DNA of 33,867 nucleotides from Thermotogae bacterium. Lineage in GTDB: Bacteria > Thermotogota > Thermotogae > Mesoaciditogales > Mesoaciditogaceae. Made by a program: the position numbers and the translations under genes. How positions within the stretch are numbered: the first letter of the stretch is position 1; the number at the start of each line of letters is the position of its first letter. The notes beneath the pieces are model-generated. The model did not search any database. It saw nothing but the letters and a program-made list of their open reading frames with translations, and was not told where the DNA came from. Of this stretch, positions 1 to 27,849 are shown in pieces. The DNA lies in the NCBI GenBank assembly GCA_026988035.1, contig JALSLY010000079.1, forward strand, positions 1 to 33,867. Direction: 5' to 3'.

Positions 1-46
1 CAAAGAAAAAAGTATAATCATAGTTGTTGGCACAATTCTTTGGGGT

Positions 47-70
47 TCCTTCCTTAGGGAAGGATTTTTT
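47..70 (+). terminator. Intrinsic terminator of an upstream gene
   Basis: A 7-bp perfect stem (TCCTTCC at 47-53, GGAAGGA at 58-64) with a four-base loop is followed directly by six T. It would end a transcript entering from the left of the window. Positions 1-46 hold no gene that I can see and are probably the 3' trailer of that transcript. Confidence 0.8.
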
Positions 71-96
71 ATTCTTCACCTAACTCTTTTTTACCA

Positions 97-105
97 TGGT
101 ATAAT
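97..105 (+). promoter_or_regulatory. Extended -10 promoter for the adh operon
   Basis: TGGTATAAT gives an exact TATAAT at 100-105 preceded by the TGn extension. Only a poor -35 match (TTCACC at 75-80, 19-bp spacer) is present, as is usual for extended -10 promoters. The first gene starts about 40 bases downstream. Confidence 0.6.
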
Positions 106-145
106 TAGTAAGGAAAACGTATTTTATAAAAGGGGGAGATCCTAA

Positions 146-1318
146 GTGAAAGGTCTAAAAGATTTTGAATATTTTCTACCAACGAGAATTATTTTTGGTG
201 TTGGCTCGATTGATAAGCTTGAAAAGCTTTGTGATCTACTTGGCAAAAAAGCCCTAATTGTAACGGGTAAACACAGTGCAAAAGCGACCGGATTGCTTGA
301 TAAAGTGTTAAGGATGCTTAACAACTCAGGAATAGAAAGTGTTGTTTTCGACAAGGTCATTTCAAATCCTCTTTCGACAACTGTTGACGAAGGTGTAGAA
401 CTTGCGAGAACTGAAAAGTGCGATTTTGTCATTGGAATAGGTGGAGGAAGTCCAATAGATTCGGCAAAAATGATAGCCATGGTTTCAAAATCCGGTGGGA
501 AATGTTGGGATTACACGAATATAGGGGGAGATAAAAGTCCAAGGGGAGCTCTGCCAATAATCGCAATTCCAACAACACATGGTACCGGAACGGAAGCTGA
601 TCCATTCGCAGTGATCACCAATCCGGAAACCCATGAAAAAGTAGGAGTAGGATTTGATGAGATCTTTCCAAATATCTCAATAGTTGATCCTGAACTTATG
701 GTTACGCTGCCTCCAAATCAAACAGCATCAACAGGGATGGATGCTTTTTATCATTCCATAGAATCTTATTTGAATGTGAACCATCAGCCTACGTCTGACC
801 TTCTTGCACTTGAAGCCATGTCTATTATAAATTATTATCTTCCTGTGGCTTACAAAAACGGAAAAGACATTGAAGCAAGGAATGCACTTGCTTGGGCGAG
901 TACAGCAGCTGGCATCTGCGAAACACTTTCTGGTTGCATTGCCAACCATTCGCTTGAACATCCTTTGAGCGGATATTACAACATCACTCACGGAGTTGGT
1001 CTGTGCGCTACTGGGCCAACACTTTTTGAGTATATCAGGCCACATGTCATAGAGAGACTTGCTAAGGTTGCAGTAGTCATGGGAGCACCCGAAAGGATCG
1101 AGGGTATCGATAAGCTTTCAGAAGTTGCGATAGAACTGATCAAGAGACTTCAGAAAAATGTTGACTTAGACCTCTCTCTTGAAAAACTGGGTGTGGAGCG
1201 TTCTAAATTAAGACTCCTTGCCGAAGTAGCAATGAAGACAATGGGAAAGCTTGTAGATGTGACACCAGGTAACCTCACAATTGACGATCTTGAAGAGATC
1301 TACAAAAGAGCCTTTTGA
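146..1318 (+). CDS. Iron-containing alcohol dehydrogenase
   Basis: This 390-residue protein is a group III (iron-type) alcohol dehydrogenase, an NAD(P)-dependent cytoplasmic enzyme interconverting alcohols and aldehydes or ketones. The Rossmann-like nucleotide motif GGGSPIDSAK lies at about residues 99-108 and the PTTHGTGTE loop at 142-150. The expected metal ligands D199, H203, H268 and H282 are all visible with the family spacing, so the enzyme should be active. The GTG start at 146 is preceded by AGGGGGAG. It is the first gene after an extended -10 promoter, and its stop lies 19 bases before the aldo/keto reductase, so the two are probably co-transcribed carbonyl reductases. Substrate cannot be told from sequence; butanol-type dehydrogenases are the nearest general description. 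Confidence 0.93.
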   Translation: MKGLKDFEYFLPTRIIFGVGSIDKLEKLCDLLGKKALIVTGKHSAKATGLLDKVLRMLNNSGIESVVFDKVISNPLSTTVDEGVELARTEKCDFVIGIGGGSPIDSAKMIAMVSKSGGKCWDYTNIGGDKSPRGALPIIAIPTTHGTGTEADPFAVITNPETHEKVGVGFDEIFPNISIVDPELMVTLPPNQTASTGMDAFYHSIESYLNVNHQPTSDLLALEAMSIINYYLPVAYKNGKDIEARNALAWASTAAGICETLSGCIANHSLEHPLSGYYNITHGVGLCATGPTLFEYIRPHVIERLAKVAVVMGAPERIEGIDKLSEVAIELIKRLQKNVDLDLSLEKLGVERSKLRLLAEVAMKTMGKLVDVTPGNLTIDDLEEIYKRAF

Positions 1319-1337
1319 GAAAGGAGTGACATTTTCT

Positions 1338-2342
1338 ATGAAGTATGTAAACTTAGGGGAAAGTGGTTTAAAAGTTTCCGAAGTTGCACTTGGAACCATG
1401 ACTTTTGGTCGTGAAACTGAGGAAAAAGACGCTGTGAAGATACTTGAAAAGTATCTCAACGTTGGCGGAAATTTCATAGATACGGCGAATGTTTACTCTC
1501 AAGGAAGATCTGAAGAGATTTTAGGGAGGGCTTTAAAAGGGAAAAGAGATGAAGTTGTTCTCGCAACAAAAGTTTTTTTCAGAATGGGTGAAGGCGTCAA
1601 TACCTATGGGGCCACAAGAAAACATATTCTTAAAGCGATCGAAGATAGCCTCAAGCGTTTGCAAACGAATTATGTGGATCTTTATCAAATACATTGTTGG
1701 GATGAAACAACGCCAATAGAAGAAACACTGGAAACGCTTGATTACCTCGTACACAAGGGTTATACAAGGTACGTGGGTGTATCCAATTTCACAGGATGGC
1801 AGATTTTAAAATCTTTGTGGATATCAAATGTACATGGATACGAAAAAATCATATCTGCTCAGATGCAGTACAGCCTTGTTGTCAGAGATATAGAAATGGA
1901 AGTTTTACCAGCCTGCCGTGATCAAAGTATGAGTATAATGGCATGGAGTCCACTTGGTGGAGGATTCTTAAGTGGAAAATACAAAGCTGGCGAATTTCCA
2001 AAAGAAGGTAGGATTGCCAGAGCTAAAAAAGACTGGGAAGAATCATGGAATAGAAGGGCAACTGAAAAGAACTTCAGAATACTTGCAAAAATTGAGGAAA
2101 TTGCTAAAAAGTATGGGAAAAGCGTTCCACAAGTGGCGCTAAATTGGCTTGTTAATCAAGATGGAGTTATACCAATTCTTGGTGCAAGAACTGTTGAGCA
2201 AATAGAAGATAATCTCGGTTCGGTAGGTTGGCTGTTGAATGAAGAAGATTTGAAAGTACTTGACGATGTGAGTCGTCCAAGTGATAAGTATCCTTACCGA
2301 TTCATAAAATGGGCAAATGACCGGGTTAAGAATGAGCAATGA
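1338..2342 (+). CDS. Aldo/keto reductase
   Basis: This is a 334-residue single-domain TIM-barrel aldo/keto reductase using NADPH to reduce carbonyl compounds. The complete catalytic tetrad is present: D48 and Y53 (in FIDTANVYSQG), K78 (ATKVF) and H119 (YQIHCWD). The cofactor-binding segment near the C-terminus reads IPILGARTVEQIEDN. It resembles the voltage-gated potassium channel beta-subunit/YghZ branch of the family. The ATG at 1338 is chosen over an upstream ATG at 1281 because AAGGAG at 1321-1326 serves it and the upstream one overlaps the preceding dehydrogenase. It lies between adh and a threonine aldolase; I recall the same reductase-aldolase adjacency in T. maritima (TM1743-TM1744). 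Confidence 0.93.
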   Translation: MKYVNLGESGLKVSEVALGTMTFGRETEEKDAVKILEKYLNVGGNFIDTANVYSQGRSEEILGRALKGKRDEVVLATKVFFRMGEGVNTYGATRKHILKAIEDSLKRLQTNYVDLYQIHCWDETTPIEETLETLDYLVHKGYTRYVGVSNFTGWQILKSLWISNVHGYEKIISAQMQYSLVVRDIEMEVLPACRDQSMSIMAWSPLGGGFLSGKYKAGEFPKEGRIARAKKDWEESWNRRATEKNFRILAKIEEIAKKYGKSVPQVALNWLVNQDGVIPILGARTVEQIEDNLGSVGWLLNEEDLKVLDDVSRPSDKYPYRFIKWANDRVKNEQ

Positions 2343-2374
2343 GCAAAATAGTGTATATGATGTAGGGTGATGTA

Positions 2375-3400
2375 ATGAGATATATAGATATTCGAAGCGA
2401 TACGGTTACTCTTCCAACTCGAAGAATGAGGCAGGAGATGTTTGAAGCCGAAGTTGGTGACGATGTTTACGGAGACGATCCGACTGTAAAAAAATTGGAA
2501 GAACTCGCCGCAAAGAAAATCGGGAAAGAAGCAGCACTATTTGTTCCATCTGGAACATTCGGAAATGAACTTGCTCTTTTTACTCATACAAGGCGTGGGG
2601 ATGAAGTGATTGTTGATAAGAACTCACACATAATGCTACATGAGGTTGGGGCCTCGGCTGTAATTGCCGGTGTGCAGTTACGCACGTATGATTCCAACAA
2701 CGGTATTCCTGATCCCGTTGAAATTAAGTCTTTGATACGTTCAAGCAATATTCATTACCCGCCTACTGCTTTAATTTGTCTCGAGAATCCCAGTGGAATG
2801 GGAACAGTTACAGATATGGATACTTTGAGAGAAATTCATGAAATTGCACACTCTTATAAAATACCAATTCATCTTGACGGAGCACGAATTTTCAACGCGG
2901 CTTGCAGCTTAAAAGTAGATGTCAAAGAGATAGCCATATATGCTGACAGTGTGATGTTCTGCCTTTCAAAAGGTCTTGCCGCACCAATAGGATCGATATT
3001 AGCTGGGACCAGAGAATTTATTGAGAAGGCTCGAAAGGGAAGAAAACTTATGGGAGGGGGTATGCGTCAAGCAGGCATAATAGCTGCTGCTGGCATAGTT
3101 GCTCTTGAAGATATGATCGACAGACTATGTGAAGATCATAAGAATGCCCGCCTTCTTGCTAAAAAACTTGATGGATTTAAAGAAATTGAAGTAATGAAGG
3201 AAAGGCTGCAAATAAATATGGTCTTCTTCAAATTAAAAAAAGAGATAAACGACAGTGCTTTCGTTTCTCATATGTTCCAAAACGGTGTAAAGATTAATCC
3301 TCCAGAGAGTGATGAGTACAGATTTGTTACCAACAAGGATGTTTCAAGAAAAGATTTGGATTTTGTTGTCAAAGCAGTTGGAGATTTTTTGGGTTATTAA
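2375..3400 (+). CDS. ltaE: Low-specificity L-threonine / L-allo-threonine aldolase
   Basis: This 341-residue PLP enzyme of the aspartate aminotransferase fold (beta-eliminating lyase family) splits threonine or allo-threonine into glycine and acetaldehyde. The N-terminal DIRSDTVTLPT signature, the PLP phosphate segment (SGTFGNELA, residues 59-67), D168 and R171 in HLDGARIFN, and the Schiff-base lysine K199 in CLSKGLAAPIG are all present. The released acetaldehyde could be a substrate for the upstream alcohol dehydrogenase and reductase, which is inference from context. A modest SD (GGGTGA) precedes the ATG. The stop codon TAA at 3398-3400 is overlapped by the left direct repeat of an inserted element, so the aldolase was probably once followed closely by the tricorn gene. 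Confidence 0.93.
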   Translation: MRYIDIRSDTVTLPTRRMRQEMFEAEVGDDVYGDDPTVKKLEELAAKKIGKEAALFVPSGTFGNELALFTHTRRGDEVIVDKNSHIMLHEVGASAVIAGVQLRTYDSNNGIPDPVEIKSLIRSSNIHYPPTALICLENPSGMGTVTDMDTLREIHEIAHSYKIPIHLDGARIFNAACSLKVDVKEIAIYADSVMFCLSKGLAAPIGSILAGTREFIEKARKGRKLMGGGMRQAGIIAAAGIVALEDMIDRLCEDHKNARLLAKKLDGFKEIEVMKERLQINMVFFKLKKEINDSAFVSHMFQNGVKINPPESDEYRFVTNKDVSRKDLDFVVKAVGDFLGY

Positions 3401-3840: not shown

Positions 3841-6800
3841 ATGGCTAATCAAATTCAAGGTTATTATCGGTATCCTACAATTCACAACAATACAGTTGTT
3901 TTTGTGTCTGAGGACGATTTGTGGTCGGTGGAAGCAAGTGGAGGGCTTGCTCAAAGACTCACAGCGAACCTTGGCGAGGTCACGAATCCCTTCTTTTCAC
4001 CTGATGGTAAATGGATAGCATTTGTTGGTCGCGAAGAGGGACATTCTGAAGTTTACATTATGCCTTCTGTTGGTGGTGTAGCGAAAAGGCTTACTTATCT
4101 TGGCAGTGATCTTATAGTTGTTGGTTGGCGAGAATCAGAGATCGTTTTCGCGACAAACTACGCCCAACCATTCGTTCGAGCCTTTGAACTGTATACGGTG
4201 GATATAAATGGAAATACACTCAGAAAGCTCCCTTTTGGATTGGCGAGAAATATTAGTTTCGGGAAAAAAGGCATCGTTATAGGTAGAAATACGGGAGATC
4301 CTGCGAGATGGAAGCGTTACCGTGGGGGAACAGCTGGAGAAATATGGATAGATGAAAAAGGAAGTGGGAACTTTCATAAACTCGTAGATTTGAAAGGAAA
4401 TCTTGCCAACCCAATGTGGATTGGTGAGCGAGTGTATTTCATCTCCGACCATGAAGGTGTAGGAAACATTTATTCCTGTCTTCCAAATGGTGAAGATGTT
4501 AGAAAACATACAAATCACGAGGAGTTTTACGCCCGAAATGCTTCTACAGATGGTCATCGTATCGTTTACCATGCTGGTGCAGATATTTATATTTTTGATC
4601 CTGAAAATGGCAAAAACTTCAAGGTTCAAGTCGTTTACCGTAGTCCTGTGATTCAACGAAGCAGAAAGTTTGTGGATGCTGAAAAATATTTAGAAGACTA
4701 CTCGCTTTCACAAGAAGGTAAATCTCTTGCGATAGTCACCCGTGGGAAATCGTTCACATTTTACAACTGGGAAGGTCCTGTTATCCGACAAAACTTTGAT
4801 AATGGTGTAAGACATAGGCTAAGTCGCTGGTTGTCCGATCAAAAACGAATTGTTCTTGTCAGTGATGAAGGTGGGGAGGATCACCTCGAGATACATTGGG
4901 TAGATGGAACTAAGGAGCCCGAAAGATTGGTAGGTTTAGACATTGGAAGACCCTATGAAATGAAGGTTTCTCCTCAAAAAGACGAAGTAATTCTCTCCAA
5001 TCATAAAAACGAATTGATATGGGTTAATCTAAAAAAAAGGAAAGTTAAGAAAATAGATAGAAATGAATACGATCTTATCAAAGGATTTGATTGGTCGCCA
5101 GATGGTAGATGGGTTGCCTATTCCATGAATGTAAGTAGACTTTTGAGTGTCATAAAAATTTATGATACTCAATCCGGTGAAATTCAAAAAGTTACAAAGC
5201 CAGTCCTTCGAGATGTGGCTCCTGTTTTTGATCCGCAGGGCAGATACCTTTACTTTCTCTCTCACAGGATCTTTAATCCAATTTATGACAACATGCAATT
5301 CGATTTTGGATTTCCGAAGGGAATGAAACCTTATCTAATTACCTTGAAGAAGGACTTGAAGAGCCCGTTCATTTCACAACCTGAAAATCAGGAAAAAAGT
5401 AGTGAAAAAGAAAAAGATGAAAAGAAAGAAAAAAAGGAGTTAAAAGTAGAGATAGATTTTGATGGAATAGCAGAAAGACTCATTCCATTTCCGGTTGATG
5501 AAGGAATATACACTTCTATTGCAGCAACAAAAAATAAGATTTTTTATACTCTCTATCCGATTGAGGGAGTGAAAGATATCAATTGGCTTGCTAAGGAGGC
5601 GCCGGCGAAAGCAATTTTGAAAGTTTTTGATCTTGAAAAGCGTGAAGAATCCTCGTTTATGGATGGGATCACAAGTTTCAAATTGTCGGGGGACGGCGAA
5701 TATTTGGTAATCCGAGTTGGAAATCGCTTGCGTGTTGTTAAAACAAAGATCAATCCAAAGGATCTTCCAAAAGAAGATAAACCTTCAAGAAAAACAGGAT
5801 GGATAGCACTTTCTCGTGTAAAAGTTTTGGTTGATCCGCTGAATGAATGGCGTCAGATGTTTAGAGAAGCTTGGAGACTTCAAAGAGATTATTACTGGAT
5901 TGAGAATATGGCTGGCATTGACTGGAAAGGTGTCTTTGACAAATACTATCCTCTCGTAGATCGCGTTGCTTCGAGAAGTGAATTTTCTGATCTTCTTTGG
6001 GAAGTTCAAGGGGAACTTGGCACATCTCATGCATACGAATTGGGAGGGGATTACAGACCAAAGCCTGAATACAAAATAGGCTTTCTGGGTGCTGATTTTT
6101 CTTATGATTCGAAACGTGATGCTTACGTTATAACACATATAGTAAATGGAGATGTTTGGGATGACAGGTATGCACCGCCTTTAAAGCAACCTGGTGTTAA
6201 CGTAAAAGAAGGAATGTATCTTTTAGCGATAAATGGACAAAGGTTGAGTAAAACTCTTTCACCTGAAAAAGCGCTTGTAAATATGATTGATCAGGAGGTT
6301 CAACTTACTGTAGCAGAGGGCCCAAATACGACTCGGATCGTTACCGTTAAAACGGTTCCGAGAGAGTTTCCTTTAAGATACAGAGAATGGGTAGAAAGAA
6401 ACAGGGAATACGTTCACGATCTCACCAAAGGAAAAGTTGGATACGTGCATATTCCAGATATGATGGCAGATGGTTATGCAGAATTTCACAGATATTTTCT
6501 CGCTGAATTGGAACACGAAGGGCTGATTGTTGACGTTAGGTTCAACAGAGGTGGTGCGATCTCACAACTCTTGCTTGGAAAACTTGCCAGAAAACGCATT
6601 GGATACGATCTAACAAGATGGATGGGGCCGCAACCTTATCCCACTGAAGCACCTTATGGTCCTGTGATTGCTTTAACCAATGAATATGCTGGTTCTGATG
6701 GAGACATTTTCAGCCATTCATTCAAGCTTATGAAACTCGGAAAACTCTTTGGTCGTCGCACCTGGGGTGGAGTCATTGGAATATGGCCGCGAAATTGGTT

Positions 6801-7032
6801 GGTTGATGGAACGATAACCACTCAACCAGAATTTTCTTTCTGGTTTAAAGATGTTGGATGGGGTGTTGAAAATTACGGAACAGATCCAGATGTTGAGGTT
6901 GATATAACTCCTCAAGATTATGCTGAGGGAAAGGATCCACAATTGGATAAAGCTATTGAAGAAGTTCTAAAGGAAATTAGAGAAACTCCACCACTTAAGC
7001 CAGATTTCAGTAATATCCCTAAAAAGGGATAA
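3841..7032 (+). CDS. Tricorn-type serine protease
   Basis: A 1063-residue cytoplasmic protease of the tricorn family (S41 group), which in archaea degrades oligopeptides released by the proteasome. The N-terminal half has TolB/WD-like beta-propeller repeats (for example FSPDGKWIAFVG and WSPDGRWVAY). A highly charged lysine/glutamate linker lies at about residues 514-540, then a C1 region, a PDZ domain (about 750-840) and the C-terminal protease domain. The catalytic tetrad known from Thermoplasma tricorn is visible: S729-H730 (GTSHAY), nucleophile S952 (YAGSDGD) and E1010 (GVENYG). There is no signal peptide. The ATG follows AGGGGGAG. Tricorn is sporadic in bacteria, so transfer is possible. 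The three M42 aminopeptidases further right could finish its products, which is inference. Confidence 0.93.
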   Translation: MANQIQGYYRYPTIHNNTVVFVSEDDLWSVEASGGLAQRLTANLGEVTNPFFSPDGKWIAFVGREEGHSEVYIMPSVGGVAKRLTYLGSDLIVVGWRESEIVFATNYAQPFVRAFELYTVDINGNTLRKLPFGLARNISFGKKGIVIGRNTGDPARWKRYRGGTAGEIWIDEKGSGNFHKLVDLKGNLANPMWIGERVYFISDHEGVGNIYSCLPNGEDVRKHTNHEEFYARNASTDGHRIVYHAGADIYIFDPENGKNFKVQVVYRSPVIQRSRKFVDAEKYLEDYSLSQEGKSLAIVTRGKSFTFYNWEGPVIRQNFDNGVRHRLSRWLSDQKRIVLVSDEGGEDHLEIHWVDGTKEPERLVGLDIGRPYEMKVSPQKDEVILSNHKNELIWVNLKKRKVKKIDRNEYDLIKGFDWSPDGRWVAYSMNVSRLLSVIKIYDTQSGEIQKVTKPVLRDVAPVFDPQGRYLYFLSHRIFNPIYDNMQFDFGFPKGMKPYLITLKKDLKSPFISQPENQEKSSEKEKDEKKEKKELKVEIDFDGIAERLIPFPVDEGIYTSIAATKNKIFYTLYPIEGVKDINWLAKEAPAKAILKVFDLEKREESSFMDGITSFKLSGDGEYLVIRVGNRLRVVKTKINPKDLPKEDKPSRKTGWIALSRVKVLVDPLNEWRQMFREAWRLQRDYYWIENMAGIDWKGVFDKYYPLVDRVASRSEFSDLLWEVQGELGTSHAYELGGDYRPKPEYKIGFLGADFSYDSKRDAYVITHIVNGDVWDDRYAPPLKQPGVNVKEGMYLLAINGQRLSKTLSPEKALVNMIDQEVQLTVAEGPNTTRIVTVKTVPREFPLRYREWVERNREYVHDLTKGKVGYVHIPDMMADGYAEFHRYFLAELEHEGLIVDVRFNRGGAISQLLLGKLARKRIGYDLTRWMGPQPYPTEAPYGPVIALTNEYAGSDGDIFSHSFKLMKLGKLFGRRTWGGVIGIWPRNWLVDGTITTQPEFSFWFKDVGWGVENYGTDPDVEVDITPQDYAEGKDPQLDKAIEEVLKEIRETPPLKPDFSNIPKKG

Positions 7033-7056
7033 CAGATCTTTCAATCGATTTTAAGT

Positions 7057-7085
7057 AAAGGCGCGTTCAATGAAGACGCGCTTTT
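7057..7085. terminator. Terminator between convergent tricorn and GH1 genes
   Basis: The GC-rich stem GCGCGT (7061-7066) / ACGCGC (7076-7081) is extended by AAAG/TTTT pairs and followed by a T tract on the + strand. The last pairs overlap the GH1 stop codon at 7084-7086, so it may work in both directions, more strongly for tricorn. Confidence 0.75.
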
Positions 7086-8310
7086 ATAATTGGTTCGAAC
7101 AAATTTTTGAATAAAATTCCCCACTCTTTCTCAGTGTCCTTTTGAATGTTTTGAAATCTGTGTGGTACAATCCGAAACGTGGTTTGAATCCCTCTCGCCA
7201 CTCGAAATTGTCCATCAATGACCAGTGAAAATATCCTTTGAGTTTTACACCTTCTGACACGCTTATACTCAACGACTCAAGTATTTTCATTATATACTTT
7301 GTTCTTATTTTGTCTTCTTCATCCGCGACGCCATTTTCAGTAATAATAATGGGAATCCTGTATCTTTTCCACATGTTTTTAATGATATCTCTTATACCTT
7401 GAGGATATAGCTCGTATCCCATTTCTGTTTTTGGCAGATCACCAGAAGAAATCTTGGGAGTAAGACCAAAGCTTACCAAAAAGCGTGTATAATAGTTCAA
7501 TCCGATGAAATCAAGTTTTATTCCATTTGACAATGTGATTTTTCCAACAGGTAACCGTGCTTTCGCGTGGAAAACAGAATCAAGAAAAGCAAAATTGTAT
7601 TGATAATTTACTATTCTGGTCATAATAAGGTCCAAAGGACTTAACGTTTTTGGACAAAAAATTGCCGTGTTTATTGCCACTGAAACTTTTGCATTTGGTA
7701 TTTTGGAGTGTATGAGATCGTACGCTTTTGAATGTGCAAGAGCCATATTTGCAAGGACCTTTTTCATTTTTTTTCGATCTTTGATCTCAGGTGGCCAATA
7801 TCCTTGTAAGTATCCAAAGAAAGCATATACATTAGGTTCATTGATCGTTATGAAATATCTAACATCATCACCGATGATATCCAGAACTCTTTGTACATAC
7901 CTGAGAAAAAATGCGACGGACTTTTTTGAGCTCCATCCTCCAATTTTGGCAAGCCAAAGTGGGTTGGTAAAATGATGAAGCGTTACCATGGGTTCTATTC
8001 TGTTTTTTCGCATGTAGGACACCTCATCTGCATAGTGGCGTAGAACTTCTTGATCAAATTCTCCTTCTCTTGGCTCAATTTTGGCCCATTCCACTGAAAA
8101 TCTAAACGCATTGACATTTAAAGCCTTTGCGATTTCGATATCTTGGCGATATAGTTCATATGAATTGCAAGCCGTTCCTGAGCGTTCTCCGTTTTTTACT
8201 TTTCCTTCAGCTTCAAACTTCCACCAGTCACTATTTGTATTGTTTCCTTCGGTTTGATGTGCTGATGTTGACACTCCCCACAAGAAATCATCGTCGAAGT
8301 TGAATTTCAA
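7084..8310 (-). CDS. GH1 family beta-glycosidase
   Basis: A 408-residue glycoside hydrolase family 1 enzyme (retaining beta-glucosidase or beta-galactosidase type, TIM barrel), probably cytoplasmic since no signal peptide is present. The N-terminal FLWGVSTSAHQTEG signature binds the sugar (Q19). The acid/base is E158 (TINEPNV) and the nucleophile E325 (IITENG). E370 in WSLMDNFEW is the usual ligand of the sugar 4- and 6-hydroxyls. It is shorter than the usual 440-470 residues, so some surface loops are reduced. The start is TTG, supported by AAGGAGGG six bases upstream. It is transcribed alone, divergent from the ABC operon and convergent with tricorn. Preferred sugar cannot be told. Confidence 0.93.
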   Translation of the reverse strand: MKFNFDDDFLWGVSTSAHQTEGNNTNSDWWKFEAEGKVKNGERSGTACNSYELYRQDIEIAKALNVNAFRFSVEWAKIEPREGEFDQEVLRHYADEVSYMRKNRIEPMVTLHHFTNPLWLAKIGGWSSKKSVAFFLRYVQRVLDIIGDDVRYFITINEPNVYAFFGYLQGYWPPEIKDRKKMKKVLANMALAHSKAYDLIHSKIPNAKVSVAINTAIFCPKTLSPLDLIMTRIVNYQYNFAFLDSVFHAKARLPVGKITLSNGIKLDFIGLNYYTRFLVSFGLTPKISSGDLPKTEMGYELYPQGIRDIIKNMWKRYRIPIIITENGVADEEDKIRTKYIMKILESLSISVSEGVKLKGYFHWSLMDNFEWREGFKPRFGLYHTDFKTFKRTLRKSGEFYSKICSNQL

Positions 8311-21866: not shown

Positions 21867-22547
21867 ATGGGTAGTGTTGATTTGCGTATGACCAAGCGTG
21901 GTGTCGTACTTTTTGTAGAAAAGTACGGCGATCTCGCTCAACTTTTTGCAGATATCACCAACAAATTTTCGCAGCTAAATGGTTTTTTTACTCAAGGTGA
22001 CAAAATCTCAGTGATGATCAAAGATAGAGAAAAGTATTCTAAAGATATAACCGAGATAGTTTCATTCGTAGAAAAGATGGGATTCAAAGTTGGGGAAATA
22101 CTCGTTGGAGAAATGAACAAAAAAACACCAAATAAATTATCGGTAAAGCAAAAGATGAAAGTCGTTGAGAGCGAGAATTTCCAACAGCTCAATCCCACAA
22201 AAGTTGTTAAAAAAACCGTAAGATCTGGGCAAGCTGTCATACATGATGGCGATGTAATTCTCGTGGGAAATCTGAATTCTGGCGGAGAGGTCATTTCCGC
22301 TGGTAACGTAATGATTTTAGGGGAAGCTCGCGGAGTAATACGTGCGGGAGTCAAAGGTGATGAAGATGCGCTTATTTTTGCAATTACTATGTCTCCAGAG
22401 CTCATCCAAATAGCGAATCATGTCTCACATGTTCCGGAATCCATTGAAAATGCCATGGCATATGTTAGGAACGGAAAAGTCGTTGTGGAGAAGTACGACA
22501 ATATCAAGTTTGGTGTTGGGAGAGATCAAATTGGAAAAGAGCGCTGA
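21867..22547 (+). CDS. minC: Septum site-determining protein MinC
   Basis: A 226-residue MinC, the FtsZ-polymerisation inhibitor that prevents division near the poles. The N-terminal domain (about 1-105) is followed by a basic linker and the right-handed beta-helix domain (about 115-205) with GDVILVGNLNSGGEVISAGNV and IRAGVKGDEDALIFA, which binds MinD. MinD and MinE are not encoded nearby. GAGGTGGGG precedes the ATG. The end overlaps the first M42 peptidase by 17 bases. I recall minC next to M42 peptidase genes in T. maritima too (TM1047-TM1050). Confidence 0.94.
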   Translation: MGSVDLRMTKRGVVLFVEKYGDLAQLFADITNKFSQLNGFFTQGDKISVMIKDREKYSKDITEIVSFVEKMGFKVGEILVGEMNKKTPNKLSVKQKMKVVESENFQQLNPTKVVKKTVRSGQAVIHDGDVILVGNLNSGGEVISAGNVMILGEARGVIRAGVKGDEDALIFAITMSPELIQIANHVSHVPESIENAMAYVRNGKVVVEKYDNIKFGVGRDQIGKER

Positions 22548-23538
22548 ACTGCTAAAGAAATTGTCAAAGGCTTTTGGTCCATCAGGATATGAAAATGAAG
22601 TTATAGATATAATTGAAGAAGAGCTGGAAGGCGTGTGCGAAACACGAAGGTTAAAATCAGGATCTTTGTTAGCGATAAAAAATGGTGATGGCCGAGGAAA
22701 GTTAATGGTATCTACCCATATAGATGAAGTTGGACTTGTTATATCGAAAGTGAAAAACGGATATGGTCGTCTTGTTCCCATAGGCGGCATAGATCCCAAG
22801 GTTTTACCGTCTCAGGTTGTCAAAATAAAAACACGTGATGGATTTCAACGTGGTGTTGTTGGGATGCTTGCGCCTCATCTTCAAAAAGGAGAAAAGCAAG
22901 ATGTTGATTTTAATTCACTTTTTGTAGATTTGAGTTGTGCTCCTGCTGCGCAAGTTGGTGATATGGCAGTTGTGGACACCGTGGCTGAATGCATAGGGGA
23001 TGAACATTTCCATGGTAAGGCACTTGATGATCGTGCAAGTGTTGTAGCTCTTATTCTTGCGCTTAAGGAGCTTTCAAGGTTCAAGACACATGCCGATTTT
23101 TATGCTCTTTTTTCTTCTCGTGAAGAAGTAGGTATGGTCGGAGCAATGACGGGAACTTTTGAAGTCAAACCAGATCTTGGAATAGCAGTGGATGTGACTT
23201 TCGGAGATAACGATTCTCCTCATGCACCAAAAATAGAAATCAACAAAGGGCCTGCAATATCTATTGGGGCGGCTACTCATAAAAATTCTTACGATTTGGC
23301 CATAAAAGTTGCAAAACAATATGATATACCATATCAGATTGAACCCAGTCCCGGCCGTACCGGGACCGATGCAGATGCAGTTCAACTTGCGTATAGAGGG
23401 GTGCCTGTTTTGCTTTTTTCCATACCGGAATTTTACATGCATACACCAGTGGAAGTTGTTTCATTGAATGATGTGAAATGGACCGCAAGACTTTTGAGTG
23501 CTTTTGCAACGGAGTGGGGTGGCATCAATGCACATTGA
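22531..23538 (+). CDS. M42 family aminopeptidase (first of three)
   Basis: A 335-residue M42 (glutamyl aminopeptidase/TET type) metallopeptidase; such proteins form large tetrahedral dodecamers that trim oligopeptides in the cytoplasm. Metal and catalytic residues are complete: H63 (STHIDEVG), D166 (ALDDR), catalytic E198 and ligand E199 (SSREEVG), D221 (AVDV) and H304 (YMHTPVEV). The TTG at 22531 is chosen since GGGAGAG precedes it and homologs begin near the ELLKKLSKAFGPSG segment; an ATG at 22420 would extend far into minC. It overlaps minC and the next M42 gene. Confidence 0.93.
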   Translation: MEKSAELLKKLSKAFGPSGYENEVIDIIEEELEGVCETRRLKSGSLLAIKNGDGRGKLMVSTHIDEVGLVISKVKNGYGRLVPIGGIDPKVLPSQVVKIKTRDGFQRGVVGMLAPHLQKGEKQDVDFNSLFVDLSCAPAAQVGDMAVVDTVAECIGDEHFHGKALDDRASVVALILALKELSRFKTHADFYALFSSREEVGMVGAMTGTFEVKPDLGIAVDVTFGDNDSPHAPKIEINKGPAISIGAATHKNSYDLAIKVAKQYDIPYQIEPSPGRTGTDADAVQLAYRGVPVLLFSIPEFYMHTPVEVVSLNDVKWTARLLSAFATEWGGINAH

Positions 23539-24523
23539 AGAATTGTCCAACCTTCGCGGCACCTCTGGTTTTGAAGATGATGTTGTGGAGTATGTAAAAA
23601 AGTCGATCTCAAATAGAGTTTCAAATATGAAAGAAGATTTCATGCGAAATCTTATAGCCTTTATTCCTGGGAAAAGGCATGATTTTAAAATAGCACTTTT
23701 TGCGCATACTGACGAAGTGGGATTGATGGTTACGCGTGTGAATGACGATGGAACTCTTAAGTTTTCACCAATAGGTGGAGTTGATCCAAGAGTTCTCGTT
23801 GGAAAGCGTGTTAAAGTTGGCAAAGAAATAGAGGGCGTTATTGGCTTTAAACCAATCCATCTCCAACATTCAGACAAGGTGAGCCCCTCGTATGACAACC
23901 TTTCAATTTTTGTCGGAACTGATCATAAAAAAGTCAACATTGGGGATCCTGTGCACTTTACCACACAGTTTGAAGAACACGGAGATTTCTACGTTGGCAA
24001 AGCTTTCGATGATCGTGTTGGATGTGCAATATTGATAGAAATTATTCAAAGTATTTCAGAGTTTCCTTGTGACACGTATTTCGTCTTTGCCTCTCAGGAA
24101 GAGGTTGGATTAAGAGGAAGTGGGGTTGCTGCTGCCAATCTTGAAATTGATGCGGCATTGGTGATAGAAGGTACAACTGCAGGGGATAATCCGGAGCTTG
24201 AATCAGAGCATTGGGCTACTCATGTTGGAGATGGACCATCAATTGTTTCGGTTCATTCGGGCTATGTTGTGGATAAAGCTATTTTTGAAGCTTTGATAAA
24301 GGTTGCATCTGCTAACTCTATTCCTTTTCAGTTAAAGAGAAGGACCGCAGGTGGTACTGACGCCGCACGTATTGCAAGGACAGGCCGTGGAACTCCTGCA
24401 GGTGTAGTGGCCGTTCCTTCAAGGTACATTCATTCGCCAGTTTCTGTTATATCAAAATCTGATTTTCGTCATACTTTTGAGCTGGTCAAAGCTTTTGTTG
24501 AAAGCGGGGTGCTTTTAAATTGA
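23528..24523 (+). CDS. M42 family aminopeptidase (second of three)
   Basis: A 331-residue paralog in the same fold. H60 (FAHTDEVG), D161 (AFDDR), E191-E192 (ASQEEVG) and H302 (YIHSPVSV) are present. The ligand that is aspartate in its two neighbours is E214 here (LVIEGTTAGD), a substitution that may shift metal or substrate preference. It lacks the KAFGPSG-type opening of the other two and starts EELSNLRGTSGFED instead, so it is the most divergent copy. The ATG at 23528 has GGAGTGGGGTGG upstream and overlaps the first copy by 11 bases. The three may form mixed complexes, which is inference. Confidence 0.92.
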   Translation: MHIEELSNLRGTSGFEDDVVEYVKKSISNRVSNMKEDFMRNLIAFIPGKRHDFKIALFAHTDEVGLMVTRVNDDGTLKFSPIGGVDPRVLVGKRVKVGKEIEGVIGFKPIHLQHSDKVSPSYDNLSIFVGTDHKKVNIGDPVHFTTQFEEHGDFYVGKAFDDRVGCAILIEIIQSISEFPCDTYFVFASQEEVGLRGSGVAAANLEIDAALVIEGTTAGDNPELESEHWATHVGDGPSIVSVHSGYVVDKAIFEALIKVASANSIPFQLKRRTAGGTDAARIARTGRGTPAGVVAVPSRYIHSPVSVISKSDFRHTFELVKAFVESGVLLN

Positions 24524-25527
24524 ACACTGAAACTTTGAAAAAGCTCGTAGAGGCATTTGGTCCTAGTGGGCGGGAAGAAAAAGTAAGAAATATAATTATT
24601 GAGTTGATAAAAGACCATGTGGATGATTATAAAATTGACAGACTTGGTAATTTGATCGCCTGGAAAAAGGGAACGGGTCTCAACAAGAAAAAGATCCTTT
24701 TTGATGCACATATGGATCAAATAGGAGTGATTGTAACTTATAAGGACAAAAGGGGTTTTCTGCGTGTTGAACCCGTTGGTGGGATTACTCCTCAAGTGAT
24801 TTATGGAACACGTTTGAATTTTGATGGTGTAATTGGGGTTGTTGGAATTGAGCGTGAAACTGCTAATGCTTATAAAGATAACCTTAAAAATCTCGATTTT
24901 GACAAAATATATGTAGATATTGCAGCACCAAGTAAATTCGATGTTGGAATAGGAAGTTTTGGTGTGTACGACGCTAATCCCATATTTGTTGATACTAAAG
25001 TCATATCTCCAGCACTTGATGACAGGATCGGCTGTACCATGCTCGTTGAAACTTTGAGAAGCTTGGATTCACTTTATAACGATTTATATGTTGCTTTTTC
25101 GGTTCAAGAGGAACATAGTCTTGCTGGAGCAAGAGTAGAAGCTTTTGATATTAAACCAGATGTGGCAATCGCGGTAGATGTTACCGATTCGGCTGATACT
25201 CCCAAAGCAGATAAGCGTACTTCCATGGTTTTAGGGAAGGGGCCTGCTATCAAAGTGATGGATTCTTTGAGTGTGTCAAATTCATATGTTGTGGAGCTTT
25301 TGAAGAGAACGGCTGAGAAAAATAACATACGCTACCAGATGGAAGTTTTACATATGGGTGGAACTGATGCGTACGGTCTTGAAAGGACTGCTAATGGCAT
25401 TTCGACTGGTGCTTTATCTATACCTACTCGATATATTCATACTCCTTCAGAAGTATGTGAGTGGGGTGATGTAGAAGAAGGCATACAACTTATGAAACTT
25501 TTGATCAAGGAGGAGATCACATTCTGA
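24520..25527 (+). CDS. M42 family aminopeptidase (third of three)
   Basis: A 335-residue M42 peptidase with intact site residues H64 (DAHMDQIG), D167 (ALDDR), E197-E198 (SVQEEH), D220 (AVDV) and H307 (YIHTPSEV). After the catalytic glutamates it reads HSLAGA rather than VG-RGA. Its start is TTG overlapping the stop of the second copy (TTGA), with only a weak GGGGTG ahead, so translation is probably coupled. Closest of the three to the first copy by its AFGPSG opening. Confidence 0.92.
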   Translation: MNTETLKKLVEAFGPSGREEKVRNIIIELIKDHVDDYKIDRLGNLIAWKKGTGLNKKKILFDAHMDQIGVIVTYKDKRGFLRVEPVGGITPQVIYGTRLNFDGVIGVVGIERETANAYKDNLKNLDFDKIYVDIAAPSKFDVGIGSFGVYDANPIFVDTKVISPALDDRIGCTMLVETLRSLDSLYNDLYVAFSVQEEHSLAGARVEAFDIKPDVAIAVDVTDSADTPKADKRTSMVLGKGPAIKVMDSLSVSNSYVVELLKRTAEKNNIRYQMEVLHMGGTDAYGLERTANGISTGALSIPTRYIHTPSEVCEWGDVEEGIQLMKLLIKEEITF

Positions 25528-25529
25528 AA

Positions 25530-26537
25530 GTGGTTGACTTTTCTCCTGAAGCTGCCCAAATGCAGTCGATGGAGGTGTATCTTTTGGACAAGAAAAAGGA
25601 ATTGTCAGATCTTATCACTTCCATGTATCCAGGAAGAGAGATTCTTTATTTTTTGGATTCGAAAGTTAAGCTTTTTCACGTCGATGTAGTCGATGCGATG
25701 AACTCTTTTCCAATCTTTGCCGGAGAGCGTGCCAAGTCTGTAGTGGGTGTTATGGATGTTCAGAATCAATTGATAAATTCGGATTCGAAAGATCCTATTG
25801 TTGTTGTGATGGGAGGTGGCACGGTACTTGATACAAGTGGATTCGCACTTGCCACTTTTACAAAAAAGCTAAAAACAATTTTTGTGCCCACAACATTTAG
25901 TTCTCAACTTGAGGGGTTTTTCAAAGAAGATGTTTACATTAATTTTGATCGGGTTAAAGATGTAATGAAAGTTCGTTTTCAGCCTAATCTTTTGGTAAAT
26001 GTCATGGAATTCACAAAGACTCAGAGTTTTGAAGAAAAGAGAAACTCGTTTATTCATGCCGCTATAATAGGGCTCTCTCATTCAAAAAGGTTCTTTAGGA
26101 CAGCTTTCAAAGTGCTTACCTCCAATTTGCTCAGTAATGAAGAGATGATCAAATATATACTCTTCGAAAGCATCCAAATGCGGGCCAACACAAAGGGGAG
26201 ATTGGTAGGAGAAGAAAGTGCTCGAGCTTTGATCACAGCTTCAAAACTTGAAATGCCTTATTTGACGGCTTTACAATATGGAGTTTTGATAGAATCGTTT
26301 ATTTCCAATAAATTTGGCTTTCTTTCAGATGAATCTTTGAAAGAAGTTTATAATTCAGTGAGAATGTGTGGGAATGTGCATTTTGACTTATCAAGTGCTG
26401 TAGAAGAACTTTCATATCAGGAAGAACCTCTTAAAGTAAGACTTCCTATCAAAATAGGTAGTGCGATCGAATACCAGATCTTTCCCGGATTTTTAACCGA
26501 GATGATATATTCAGCACACTCTAAGGGCTTCATATAA
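25530..26537 (+). CDS. Dehydroquinate synthase-like protein lacking metal ligands
   Basis: This 335-residue protein has the dehydroquinate synthase/glycerol dehydrogenase fold. The NAD-binding GGGTVLDTSGFALATF and the following VPTTFSSQLEGFF copy the AroB segments GGG--D--GF-A and PTTLLAQ-D. Where AroB has GHTFAHA and LHGEAVA, this protein has GEESARA and LQYGVLI, so the zinc histidines are replaced by E, R and Q, and the usual E-V-I-K segment is not recognisable. It is therefore probably not a dehydroquinate synthase. Role unknown. The start is uncertain: GTG at 25530 is 13 bases after AAGGAGGAGA, whereas in-frame ATT (25521) or CTG (25524) are better spaced but rare start codons. Confidence 0.75.
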   Translation: MVDFSPEAAQMQSMEVYLLDKKKELSDLITSMYPGREILYFLDSKVKLFHVDVVDAMNSFPIFAGERAKSVVGVMDVQNQLINSDSKDPIVVVMGGGTVLDTSGFALATFTKKLKTIFVPTTFSSQLEGFFKEDVYINFDRVKDVMKVRFQPNLLVNVMEFTKTQSFEEKRNSFIHAAIIGLSHSKRFFRTAFKVLTSNLLSNEEMIKYILFESIQMRANTKGRLVGEESARALITASKLEMPYLTALQYGVLIESFISNKFGFLSDESLKEVYNSVRMCGNVHFDLSSAVEELSYQEEPLKVRLPIKIGSAIEYQIFPGFLTEMIYSAHSKGFI

Positions 26538-26566: not shown

Positions 26567-27274
26567 GTGGAAGAAAAATCTGAAATCTATTACAAAATAA
26601 GATTGGTAATACTTGTGGTGATTGTGGGTCTTCTGATTGCTACAATAGGATGGTTGGCAGGGGTAAATGGAAGGATGAATTCAGTAGAAAAACAGGTTAA
26701 CAATGAAAAGGTTGCTATTTCCTCGCTTACTACAGCGGTTGCGAGTCTTACGGCAAAGGTTGATGATCTCACACTTAAGGCTTCAAGATTATCAAGCAAT
26801 ATCAAAGTCAATCTTCCGACTCTCTCGTCCACATATGTCTCGATCCAGTCAATGAAATATACAACTATTCTAAGAAATGCACCTTTAACTATTCCTTCAA
26901 GCGCCACATTGGCTACCATATCTTCGACGGATATAAAAAGTTTCAACTCTATACTCGAAGGCACAAGAATTTATGAGATAACAGAGTTCAATGGAACGTA
27001 CAATCTTGCCTATCCAGCCAATTTTGGAATGACTTACTCTATTCAGCTTGTTTCGTCTCCATATCCTGACAGAGTGATGAATTTAGTGAAAAATTTGAGG
27101 AGCATTGGACAACCTGCATTTGAAATTAATTATGCTAATCAGTCTGGATTGTTTGTTGGAGTCTTCCCAACTTATTCACAAGCGAAAGAATATGTAAGTT
27201 CAATAGGATCAACATCTATTGTGTCAATAGTAGGCACAAAGCCACAAAACTGGCTACCAAGAAAGATACCATGA
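26567..27274 (+). CDS. Membrane-anchored coiled-coil protein with SPOR-like domain
   Basis: A 235-residue protein with one N-terminal transmembrane segment (about 12-32, short cytoplasmic tail), a heptad-like coiled coil (38-78, many L, V and S at a/d positions), a serine/threonine-rich stretch and a C-terminal SPOR-like domain (about 155-230: YSIQLVSSPYPDRVMNLVKNL then GLFVGVFPTYSQAKEYVSSI). SPOR domains bind peptidoglycan stripped of stem peptides at division sites. With minC upstream in the run, a role in envelope or division is plausible but not shown. The GTG start has AAGGAGGGG. Confidence 0.75.
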   Translation: MEEKSEIYYKIRLVILVVIVGLLIATIGWLAGVNGRMNSVEKQVNNEKVAISSLTTAVASLTAKVDDLTLKASRLSSNIKVNLPTLSSTYVSIQSMKYTTILRNAPLTIPSSATLATISSTDIKSFNSILEGTRIYEITEFNGTYNLAYPANFGMTYSIQLVSSPYPDRVMNLVKNLRSIGQPAFEINYANQSGLFVGVFPTYSQAKEYVSSIGSTSIVSIVGTKPQNWLPRKIP

Positions 27275-27288
27275 AGCAATGATAACAA

Positions 27289-27849
27289 ATGAAGACGAGA
27301 ACTCGGATCGTTTTGGGAGTAGCTTTTTTGTTGATTTTGACAGGAGCGTTGATTCTTTTCACGCCGTTTGGGAAGATCGCTAAATTAGAGAACAAAACGA
27401 TTCTTCTACCAACTCCTGCTAAATTTTCTTTGATAGATGTTAATAAAGCATCAATTAAAGATTTGGAGAAATTGCCCGGCGTAGGTCCTTCTAAAGCTCG
27501 AGCGATTGTTGAATATAGAGAAAAGAATGGAGCTTTTAAGCAAATTCAAGATTTACTAAAAGTATCGGGCATAGGGAAAGAAACGCTCAAAAGATTTTCT
27601 AACATGATCACAGGTTTTTCGTTATCGAATCAACCGTTGAAAAGCACGAATCTTGTGGATATCAACAAGGCAACTATTGACGAGTTCGAAAAACTCCCTT
27701 CAATTGGACCAACAAGAGCTAAAGAAATCGTTGAATACAGAAATTCACACGGCCCCTTTTCTAATATTGAAGAACTTTTGAAGGTTAAAGGTATAGGTCC
27801 CAAAACGCTTAACAAAATTAAAACATTGGTGAAAGTTGGAAAGAGTTGA
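27289..27849 (+). CDS. Membrane-anchored double ComEA (HhH) protein
   Basis: A 186-residue protein with an N-terminal transmembrane helix (about 8-26) and two successive ComEA-type helix-hairpin-helix domains: residues 48-107 (DVNKASIKDLEKLPGVGPSKA) and 124-183 (DINKATIDEFEKLPSIGPTRA). Each has the two hairpins (LPGVG and VSGIG; LPSIG and VKGIG) that bind the DNA backbone without sequence preference. ComEA is the DNA receptor at the outside of the membrane in natural transformation; most have a single domain. No ComEC lies in the window. There is no clear SD for the ATG, 15 bases after the SPOR gene, so translation may be by reinitiation. Confidence 0.88.
   Translation: MKTRTRIVLGVAFLLILTGALILFTPFGKIAKLENKTILLPTPAKFSLIDVNKASIKDLEKLPGVGPSKARAIVEYREKNGAFKQIQDLLKVSGIGKETLKRFSNMITGFSLSNQPLKSTNLVDINKATIDEFEKLPSIGPTRAKEIVEYRNSHGPFSNIEELLKVKGIGPKTLNKIKTLVKVGKS

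Follow-up and report, generated by a model that had tools for sequence, protein, structure and literature searches.

A frame resembling 3-dehydroquinate synthase (DHQ synthase, AroB) follows three M42 peptidase genes in the genome of a Thermotogae bacterium, raising the question of whether it still encodes a shikimate-pathway enzyme, serves the peptidases beside it or has been turned to some other use. The window, by which we mean the whole 33,867-nucleotide stretch of DNA analysed, comes from a 2.04 Mb assembly (97.6% complete). Three named relatives were found, at 72–88% identity: a Mesoaciditogaceae, a Mesoaciditoga and a metagenome genome of an uncultured Thermotogae. We propose that the product, here called psAroB, would be an AroB-derived pseudoenzyme that probably binds NAD(H) and works with a SPOR-like envelope or division protein, a reading to which we assign a probability of about 0.45.

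An extra dehydroquinate synthase homologue

The psAroB frame occupies positions 25,530–26,537 of the forward strand and encodes 335 residues, intact and with no internal stops. At its 5′ end the ribosome-binding sequence GGAGGAG is followed by CTG AAA GTG, with the CTG some ten bases past GGAGG; the same codon is CTG in the window and in loci L033–L037 (six of the nine loci printed) and TTG in L038–L040. Because this CTG is common to the window and L033–L037, translation probably begins there, at 25,524, which would extend the gene to 25,524–26,537 and have it overlap the stop codon of the third M42 gene as CTGA (25,524–25,527).

The N-terminal domain is recognized by PF01761 at 44.5 bits, above the cut-off of 24.2, and the C-terminal profile PF24621 gives no match at E 0.01, versus a score of 105.5 for the genome's own AroK-AroB fusion. 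An hhalign comparison of 55 psAroB copies with 23 AroB-type rows, one of which is a wrong-frame ORF (aroKB_L115), returned E 3e-52 over 343 columns, and profile A2, built from 19 psAroB orthologues, aligned with the DHQ synthase structure 3CLH over positions 15–333 of 341 (E 4e-31). Judged from such profile alignments, psAroB is a full-length homologue of DHQ synthase. The stricter AroB profile TIGR01357 (cut-off 305) scores psAroB at 63.2 bits and the AroK-AroB fusion, likewise below, at 279; the fusion also stays under the NF010556 cut-off (378 bits vs. 560). A plasmid search matched 42 records, the ten listed being AroB-like at 20–27% identity.

Within the same genome, a PF01761 search finds two loci: psAroB (47 bits) and the AroK-AroB fusion, a 482-residue protein encoded on contig C31 (116 bits) directly adjoining aroC. 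The fusion carries intact GHTIAHA and SHGHAVA motifs with all three zinc ligands, and its existence makes psAroB an extra copy. The initial annotation had asked for a genome search for a true aroB and had regarded the absence of any other, together with growth without aromatic amino acids, as evidence against a pseudoenzyme; a true aroB is present.

Across the class, psAroB does not track the shikimate pathway. Thirteen of its 56 carriers have no TIGR01357 match besides psAroB itself (G011, G012, G021, G023, G035, G051, G061, G062, G070, G071, G072, G077 and G078), and 11 of these 13, three of them 99% complete, have no aroC match either. The argument from pathway loss does not extend to the other two, which lack a further aroB match yet retain aroC in whole or in part: in G012 a fragment of the gene lies where a contig ends, and G061 (locus L118; 91% complete) has a whole aroC and, as its only aroB match, a psAroB whose NAD motif is broken too. 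In G005, a fourteenth carrier, AroB is represented solely by a shortened 241-residue frame (L119, 1,736–2,458; matched in two pieces, at 90 and 84 bits) and aroC by no match; psAroB is intact in this genome, whose shikimate pathway may be decaying. Naming psAroB a 3-dehydroquinate synthase from PF01761 alone would thus wrongly fill a pathway gap in genomes lacking aroB and aroC, such as G021.

Metal, substrate and NAD sites

DHQ synthase is described as requiring a divalent metal and binding NAD+ (PMC7144000), with the metal acting as a Lewis acid in the first step (PMC5760197). The three zinc ligands are Glu, His and His in all 23 AroB-type sequences compared. In the window these positions hold H176 (26,055–26,057), E228 (26,211–26,213) and Y244 (26,259–26,261; all forward strand), and among the 55 psAroB copies Glu persists at the first in one and His at the second and third in none (E194, H271 and H287 in Aspergillus nidulans numbering); the third position is Tyr in 34 copies, Phe in 14, Asn in 6 and Ile in 1. 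The pocket was judged from these alignments, a predicted structure based on four close orthologues having been discarded at a mean pLDDT of 35. The initial annotation was right that both zinc-binding histidines are gone and that GHT.AHA has become GEESARA, with E228 at the histidine. Its second alignment, LHGEAVA to LQYGVLI, is out of register, since AroB SHGHAVAIGM aligns with PYLTALQYGV and the ligand His with Tyr244, and it missed the remaining ligand, a Glu replaced by His176. The copy in L052 (G013, family f5; positions 3–3,057) keeps Glu at the first position, with Arg and Tyr at the second and third, and is possibly an early-diverging form of psAroB.

Conservation was further compared at the 37 positions where at least 22 of the 23 AroB-type controls agree; a first alignment and site table held 37 psAroB rows, the final table 55 psAroB and 23 AroB-type rows. 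Residue names, numbering and roles (D146, K152, N162, K197, K250, R264, N268, H275 and K356) follow the A. nidulans enzyme. In psAroB the known sites split sharply into an NAD side, kept in 45–55 of 55 copies, and a metal and substrate side that is mostly lost. Equivalents of D146, K197, R264 and H275 are kept in no copy, and those of K152, N162, K250, N268 and K356 in 12, 20, 4, 2 and 4 of the 55, respectively. In the window psAroB the equivalents of D146, K152, K197, N268, H275 and K356 are changed, N162 has become Asp and K250 Arg, and the R264 equivalent falls within a deletion at the RxxLN region. Sugar phosphate sensing, one of two roles floated by the initial annotation, is accordingly not favoured, as most substrate- and phosphate-contact residues of AroB are gone, the equivalents of K152, K197, R264 and K356 among them.

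The NAD side reads very differently. The segment G65-E66-x-x-K69 (25,722–25,736), which we take to be a dinucleotide-contact motif, keeps G, E and K in 45, 46 and 54 of 55 copies; the NAD pyrophosphate motif G95-G96-G97-xxx-D101 (25,812–25,832) keeps its glycines in 55, 54 and 46 and its Asp in 48; P120-T121-T122 (25,887–25,895; all forward strand) is kept in 55, 46 and 52; and the K161 equivalent persists in 45. All three motifs are present in the window protein, including the longer GGGxxxDxxGF, so that the GGG--D--GF and PTT reported earlier from the sequence are indeed there. In iron-type alcohol dehydrogenases the GGG motif is reported to contact the NAD(P) pyrophosphate (PMC5125639). GGG is degenerate in 9 of the 55 psAroB copies, L118 and L098 included, with Tyr (7) or Asn (2) for the third Gly, and the L118 copy reads GDN with Asn in place of the motif Asp; NAD binding therefore cannot be essential in every lineage. 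For the window protein itself, the complete motifs make NAD(H) binding likely. The other role floated at the outset, NAD sensing, thus stays plausible for the window, but the motifs it would depend on decay in some relatives.

Descent, selection and gene neighbourhood

A search with profile A2 found psAroB in 56 of 103 genomes of the class. Counted over the listed genomes, it occurs in 10 of 10 in family f1, 3 of 3 in f3, 1 of 1 in f4, 1 of 2 in f5, 3 of 3 in f6, 21 of 21 in f7, 1 of 1 in f8 and 16 of 17 in f9; in G019 (f5, 71% complete), G069 (f9, 78%) and every listed genome of f2, f10 and f11 the matches are of AroB type or absent, and 14 genomes without a match, 7 of them f10 or f11, stand outside the list. 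The locus set covers 55 of the 56 carriers, G049 being detected by profile with its locus left out. In a tree of 25 psAroB and 23 AroB-type rows, whose omitted copies include L052, L098 and L118, psAroB forms one clade (100/100), and every psAroB family with at least two rows is monophyletic. An earlier tree, which included the wrong-frame control row aroKB_L115, grouped all of its 28 psAroB rows (96/98), with L052 and L118 flagged as long branches. The single clade and monophyletic families make vertical descent from one event the simplest reading.

Synonymous divergence of psAroB was estimable for two pairs, the window with L033 (dS 1.43, near saturation) and with L035 (dS 0.76), for which dN/dS is 0.040 and 0.080. 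These values are close to those of MinC (0.049 and 0.083) and, for the L033 pair, not above those of the second and third M42 genes (0.064 and 0.089); the SPOR-like gene has 0.155 and 0.079, and comEA 0.200 in the L033 pair. By this measure, psAroB is under strong purifying selection. Its earlier description as an intact gene, pseudo-dehydroquinate synthase in identity and with another role, is well supported (metal- and substrate-site residues kept in 0–4 of 55 copies, K152 and N162 apart; dN/dS 0.04 and 0.08), and we regard the window protein as almost certainly a pseudo-DHQ-synthase on these sequence grounds. In L129 (G065) psAroB is broken into 264- and 64-residue frames (6,345–7,330), and the neighbouring frames are of normal length.

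In the window psAroB lies in a forward-strand run that begins with minC (21,867–22,547; NF010598 204 bits, cut-off 183) and continues with three M42 peptidase genes at 22,420–23,538, 23,498–24,523 and 24,520–25,527 (PF05343 234, 265 and 257 bits), the first of which overlaps minC as a frame and probably has a later true start. psAroB is then followed by a gene for a SPOR-like protein (26,567–27,274) and one for a ComEA-like helix-hairpin-helix protein with an N-terminal hydrophobic segment (27,289–27,849). The genome also encodes MinD, and a fourth M42 peptidase gene lies on contig C52 (2,347–3,177). Across the other loci, SPOR, ComEA, M42 and MinC labels come from small iterated profiles built over these loci, without outside calibration.

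With this labelling, the SPOR-like gene directly follows psAroB in 54 of 55 loci, overlapping it by 4 bases in 23 of the 54. The exception is the f5 copy L052 (G013), where psAroB borders the end of a contig and precedes different genes, recognized by eye as histidine-degradation frames. The upstream side is far more variable: an M42 gene directly precedes psAroB in 27 loci, minC in 5 and some other frame in 21, namely the 20 loci of f7 and the single locus of f8, with none found in 2. No M42 match was found in five of the ten genomes of the window's own family (G001, G005, G006, G008 and G009; 83–96% complete), all of which keep psAroB, a sixth has a single M42 copy elsewhere, and among the 20 loci examined in f7 there is no M42 gene adjoining psAroB. 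Conversely, 15 sampled comEA loci include seven psAroB-negative ones (L086, L087, L088, L089, L091, L092 and L095), from families f2 and f11, which we guess are Thermotogales, where the order is minC, three M42 genes, SPOR-like and comEA and the peptidase genes run directly into the SPOR-like gene (five junctions were read). As for the remaining sampled loci, L096 reads M42c, SPOR-like, comEA, L098 has psAroB, and six carry too few labels (L090, L093, L094, L097, L099 and L100). The M42 peptidases thus seem neither needed nor sufficient for psAroB, whose link to them looks incidental; to call the gene attached to the peptidase cluster, as the initial annotation did, is true of the window and misleading as to function. 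The SPOR-like gene, in turn, does not need psAroB, since it follows the peptidases directly in the seven negative loci, and these, otherwise keeping the gene order, offer a natural comparison. What emerges is a gene spread through the class and tied to one partner gene.

That partner is named SPOR-like because its PF05036 score falls just under the cut-off of 21, at 19.0 bits (E 0.0017) in the window, 17.6 in L053 and 14.9 and 15.2 in L038. The downstream proteins begin with an N-terminal segment and one hydrophobic helix, the latter present in all 53 that were checked (every locus but L052 and L136). A variable region then leads to a C-terminal domain whose pattern is common to 16 aligned sequences. 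At L136 the part labelled SPOR falls into two frames, of 126 and 75 residues. A plain search with the window's protein reached 14 of 61 genomes, and orthology beyond those 14 rests on position, shape and small iterated profiles. In genus g2 (L038–L041; G003, G006, G008 and G009), where the psAroB locus contains no M42 gene, psAroB is followed by a tandem pair of SPOR-like genes, and a third lies elsewhere. psAroB in the window has an N-terminus that is not strongly hydrophobic and a highest 19-residue hydropathy of 1.57, starting at residue 92, which would fit a soluble protein; as the same measure rises above 1.6 in 19 of 55 copies, its solubility is an assumption.

Proposed role, alternatives and known systems

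SPOR domains have been reported to bind denuded septal glycan (PMC6895207). That many related bacteria retain psAroB next to the gene of a probable cell-wall-binding membrane protein suggests an old enzyme that is now regulatory or structural. We consider a functional partnership between psAroB and the SPOR-like protein slightly better supported than not, bearing in mind that adjacency of genes does not equal interaction. In such a partnership psAroB would be soluble, would bind NAD(H) in the cofactor cleft inherited from AroB while turning over no sugar phosphate, and would serve the SPOR-like protein as regulator or scaffold on the inner side of the membrane, contacting it presumably at the septum. 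A plausible role would then be to tune septal or envelope assembly to the redox state, as KidO, an oxidoreductase homologue that binds NADH, does for FtsZ in Caulobacter, although control of division by a redox signal is in itself doubtful. Equally speculative is the wider scenario in which a DHQ synthase would have become a pseudoenzyme early in the history of the class and, by binding NAD(H), would report the redox state to the septal wall machinery through its SPOR-like membrane partner and so form a metabolic checkpoint on an AroB fold.

Two alternatives concern what the rewritten pocket does. psAroB of the window's family could be a re-purposed active enzyme in which H176, E228 and Y244 bind another metal, or one that carries out metal-free NAD oxidoreduction of a small substrate. 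His, Glu and Tyr are all able to bind metals, the H-E-Y set is found in 9 of the 10 copies of this family, where the NAD motifs are complete, and an unusual metal site may exist there; moreover, none of the 18 copies from f1, f3, f4, f6 and f8 has lost R/K218 or E228, which argues that the pocket is under a constraint of its own. Against catalysis, however, the tenth family copy (L035, 86% identical) has Gln in place of His176 and reads Q-E-Y, the first ligand position is mostly hydrophobic outside the family, the second and third vary across the class (Glu, Thr, Met and others; Tyr, Phe, Asn or Ile), and most substrate- and phosphate-contact residues are lost, so that we hold an active enzyme to be unlikely. 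The opposite possibility, a pure structural scaffold in the complex of the SPOR-like protein with the NAD motif as a folding relic, would account for the nine copies with a degenerate GGG, L118 and L098 among them, two loci at which the SPOR-like gene still follows; but GExxK, GGG, D and PT persist in 45–55 of the 55 copies within a pocket that is otherwise rewritten, more conservation than a relic would need, and we hold this possibility to be likewise unlikely.

The other alternatives fare worse. psAroB could regulate or assist the three neighbouring M42 aminopeptidases, as its CTGA overlap with the third gene and the M42 gene upstream in 27 of 55 loci would allow, but its retention in the five family genomes without an M42 match, from which we reject an M42 subunit, the f7 loci and the seven negative loci with all three peptidase genes make this improbable. 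A working or back-up DHQ synthase has in its favour the above-threshold PF01761 match and is rejected: every zinc ligand is replaced along with most catalytic residues, TIGR01357 gives 63 bits against 305, a true AroK-AroB is present and 11 genomes keep psAroB without other aroB or aroC matches, leaving it a negligible chance. A decaying pseudogene, as the broken frame in G065 might suggest, is scarcely credible for a gene that has no stops in the window, has dN/dS of 0.04–0.08 in two pairs and is retained in 56 of 103 genomes, and we reject it for the window on the dN/dS values. We therefore return to an AroB-derived pseudoenzyme working with the SPOR-like protein as the preferred reading.

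Among the matches listed from a mostly open-access literature we found no earlier description of an AroB-derived pseudoenzyme and recognized no link of the AroB fold to division; the match for dehydroquinate synthase and pseudoenzyme concerns a colourless ochrophyte, and matches for three or more of DHQ synthase, Thermotog-, M42 and MinC are unrelated by title. Among known systems, AroB (TIGR01357, PF01761/PF24621) shares with psAroB its full-length homology and the GExxK, GGGxxxD and PTT motifs, whereas psAroB has no zinc-ligand identities, has lost most substrate and phosphate contacts, carries a deletion at the RxxLN region, and goes unrecognized by PF24621. The sugar phosphate cyclases (sedoheptulose-7-phosphate cyclase, DOIS, TIGR04425) belong to the same superfamily, but the cyclase control L122 keeps the E-H-H ligands, unlike psAroB, which scores 56.4 bits against the TIGR04425 cut-off of 400. 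Iron-type alcohol, glycerol and glycerol-1-phosphate dehydrogenases (PF00465, PF13685) are described as having a related fold and the GGG motif (PMC5125639); compared by profile score and this motif, psAroB stays below the PF13685 cut-off (17.1 bits vs. 28). The closest parallel in working, rather than in descent, would be KidO and GdhZ of Caulobacter, described as regulators of division that stem from metabolic enzymes and bind NAD(H) (PMC7083601): like them, psAroB as proposed would be a relative of a metabolic enzyme that binds NAD(H) and acts in division, a role that in its case is suggested by gene context.
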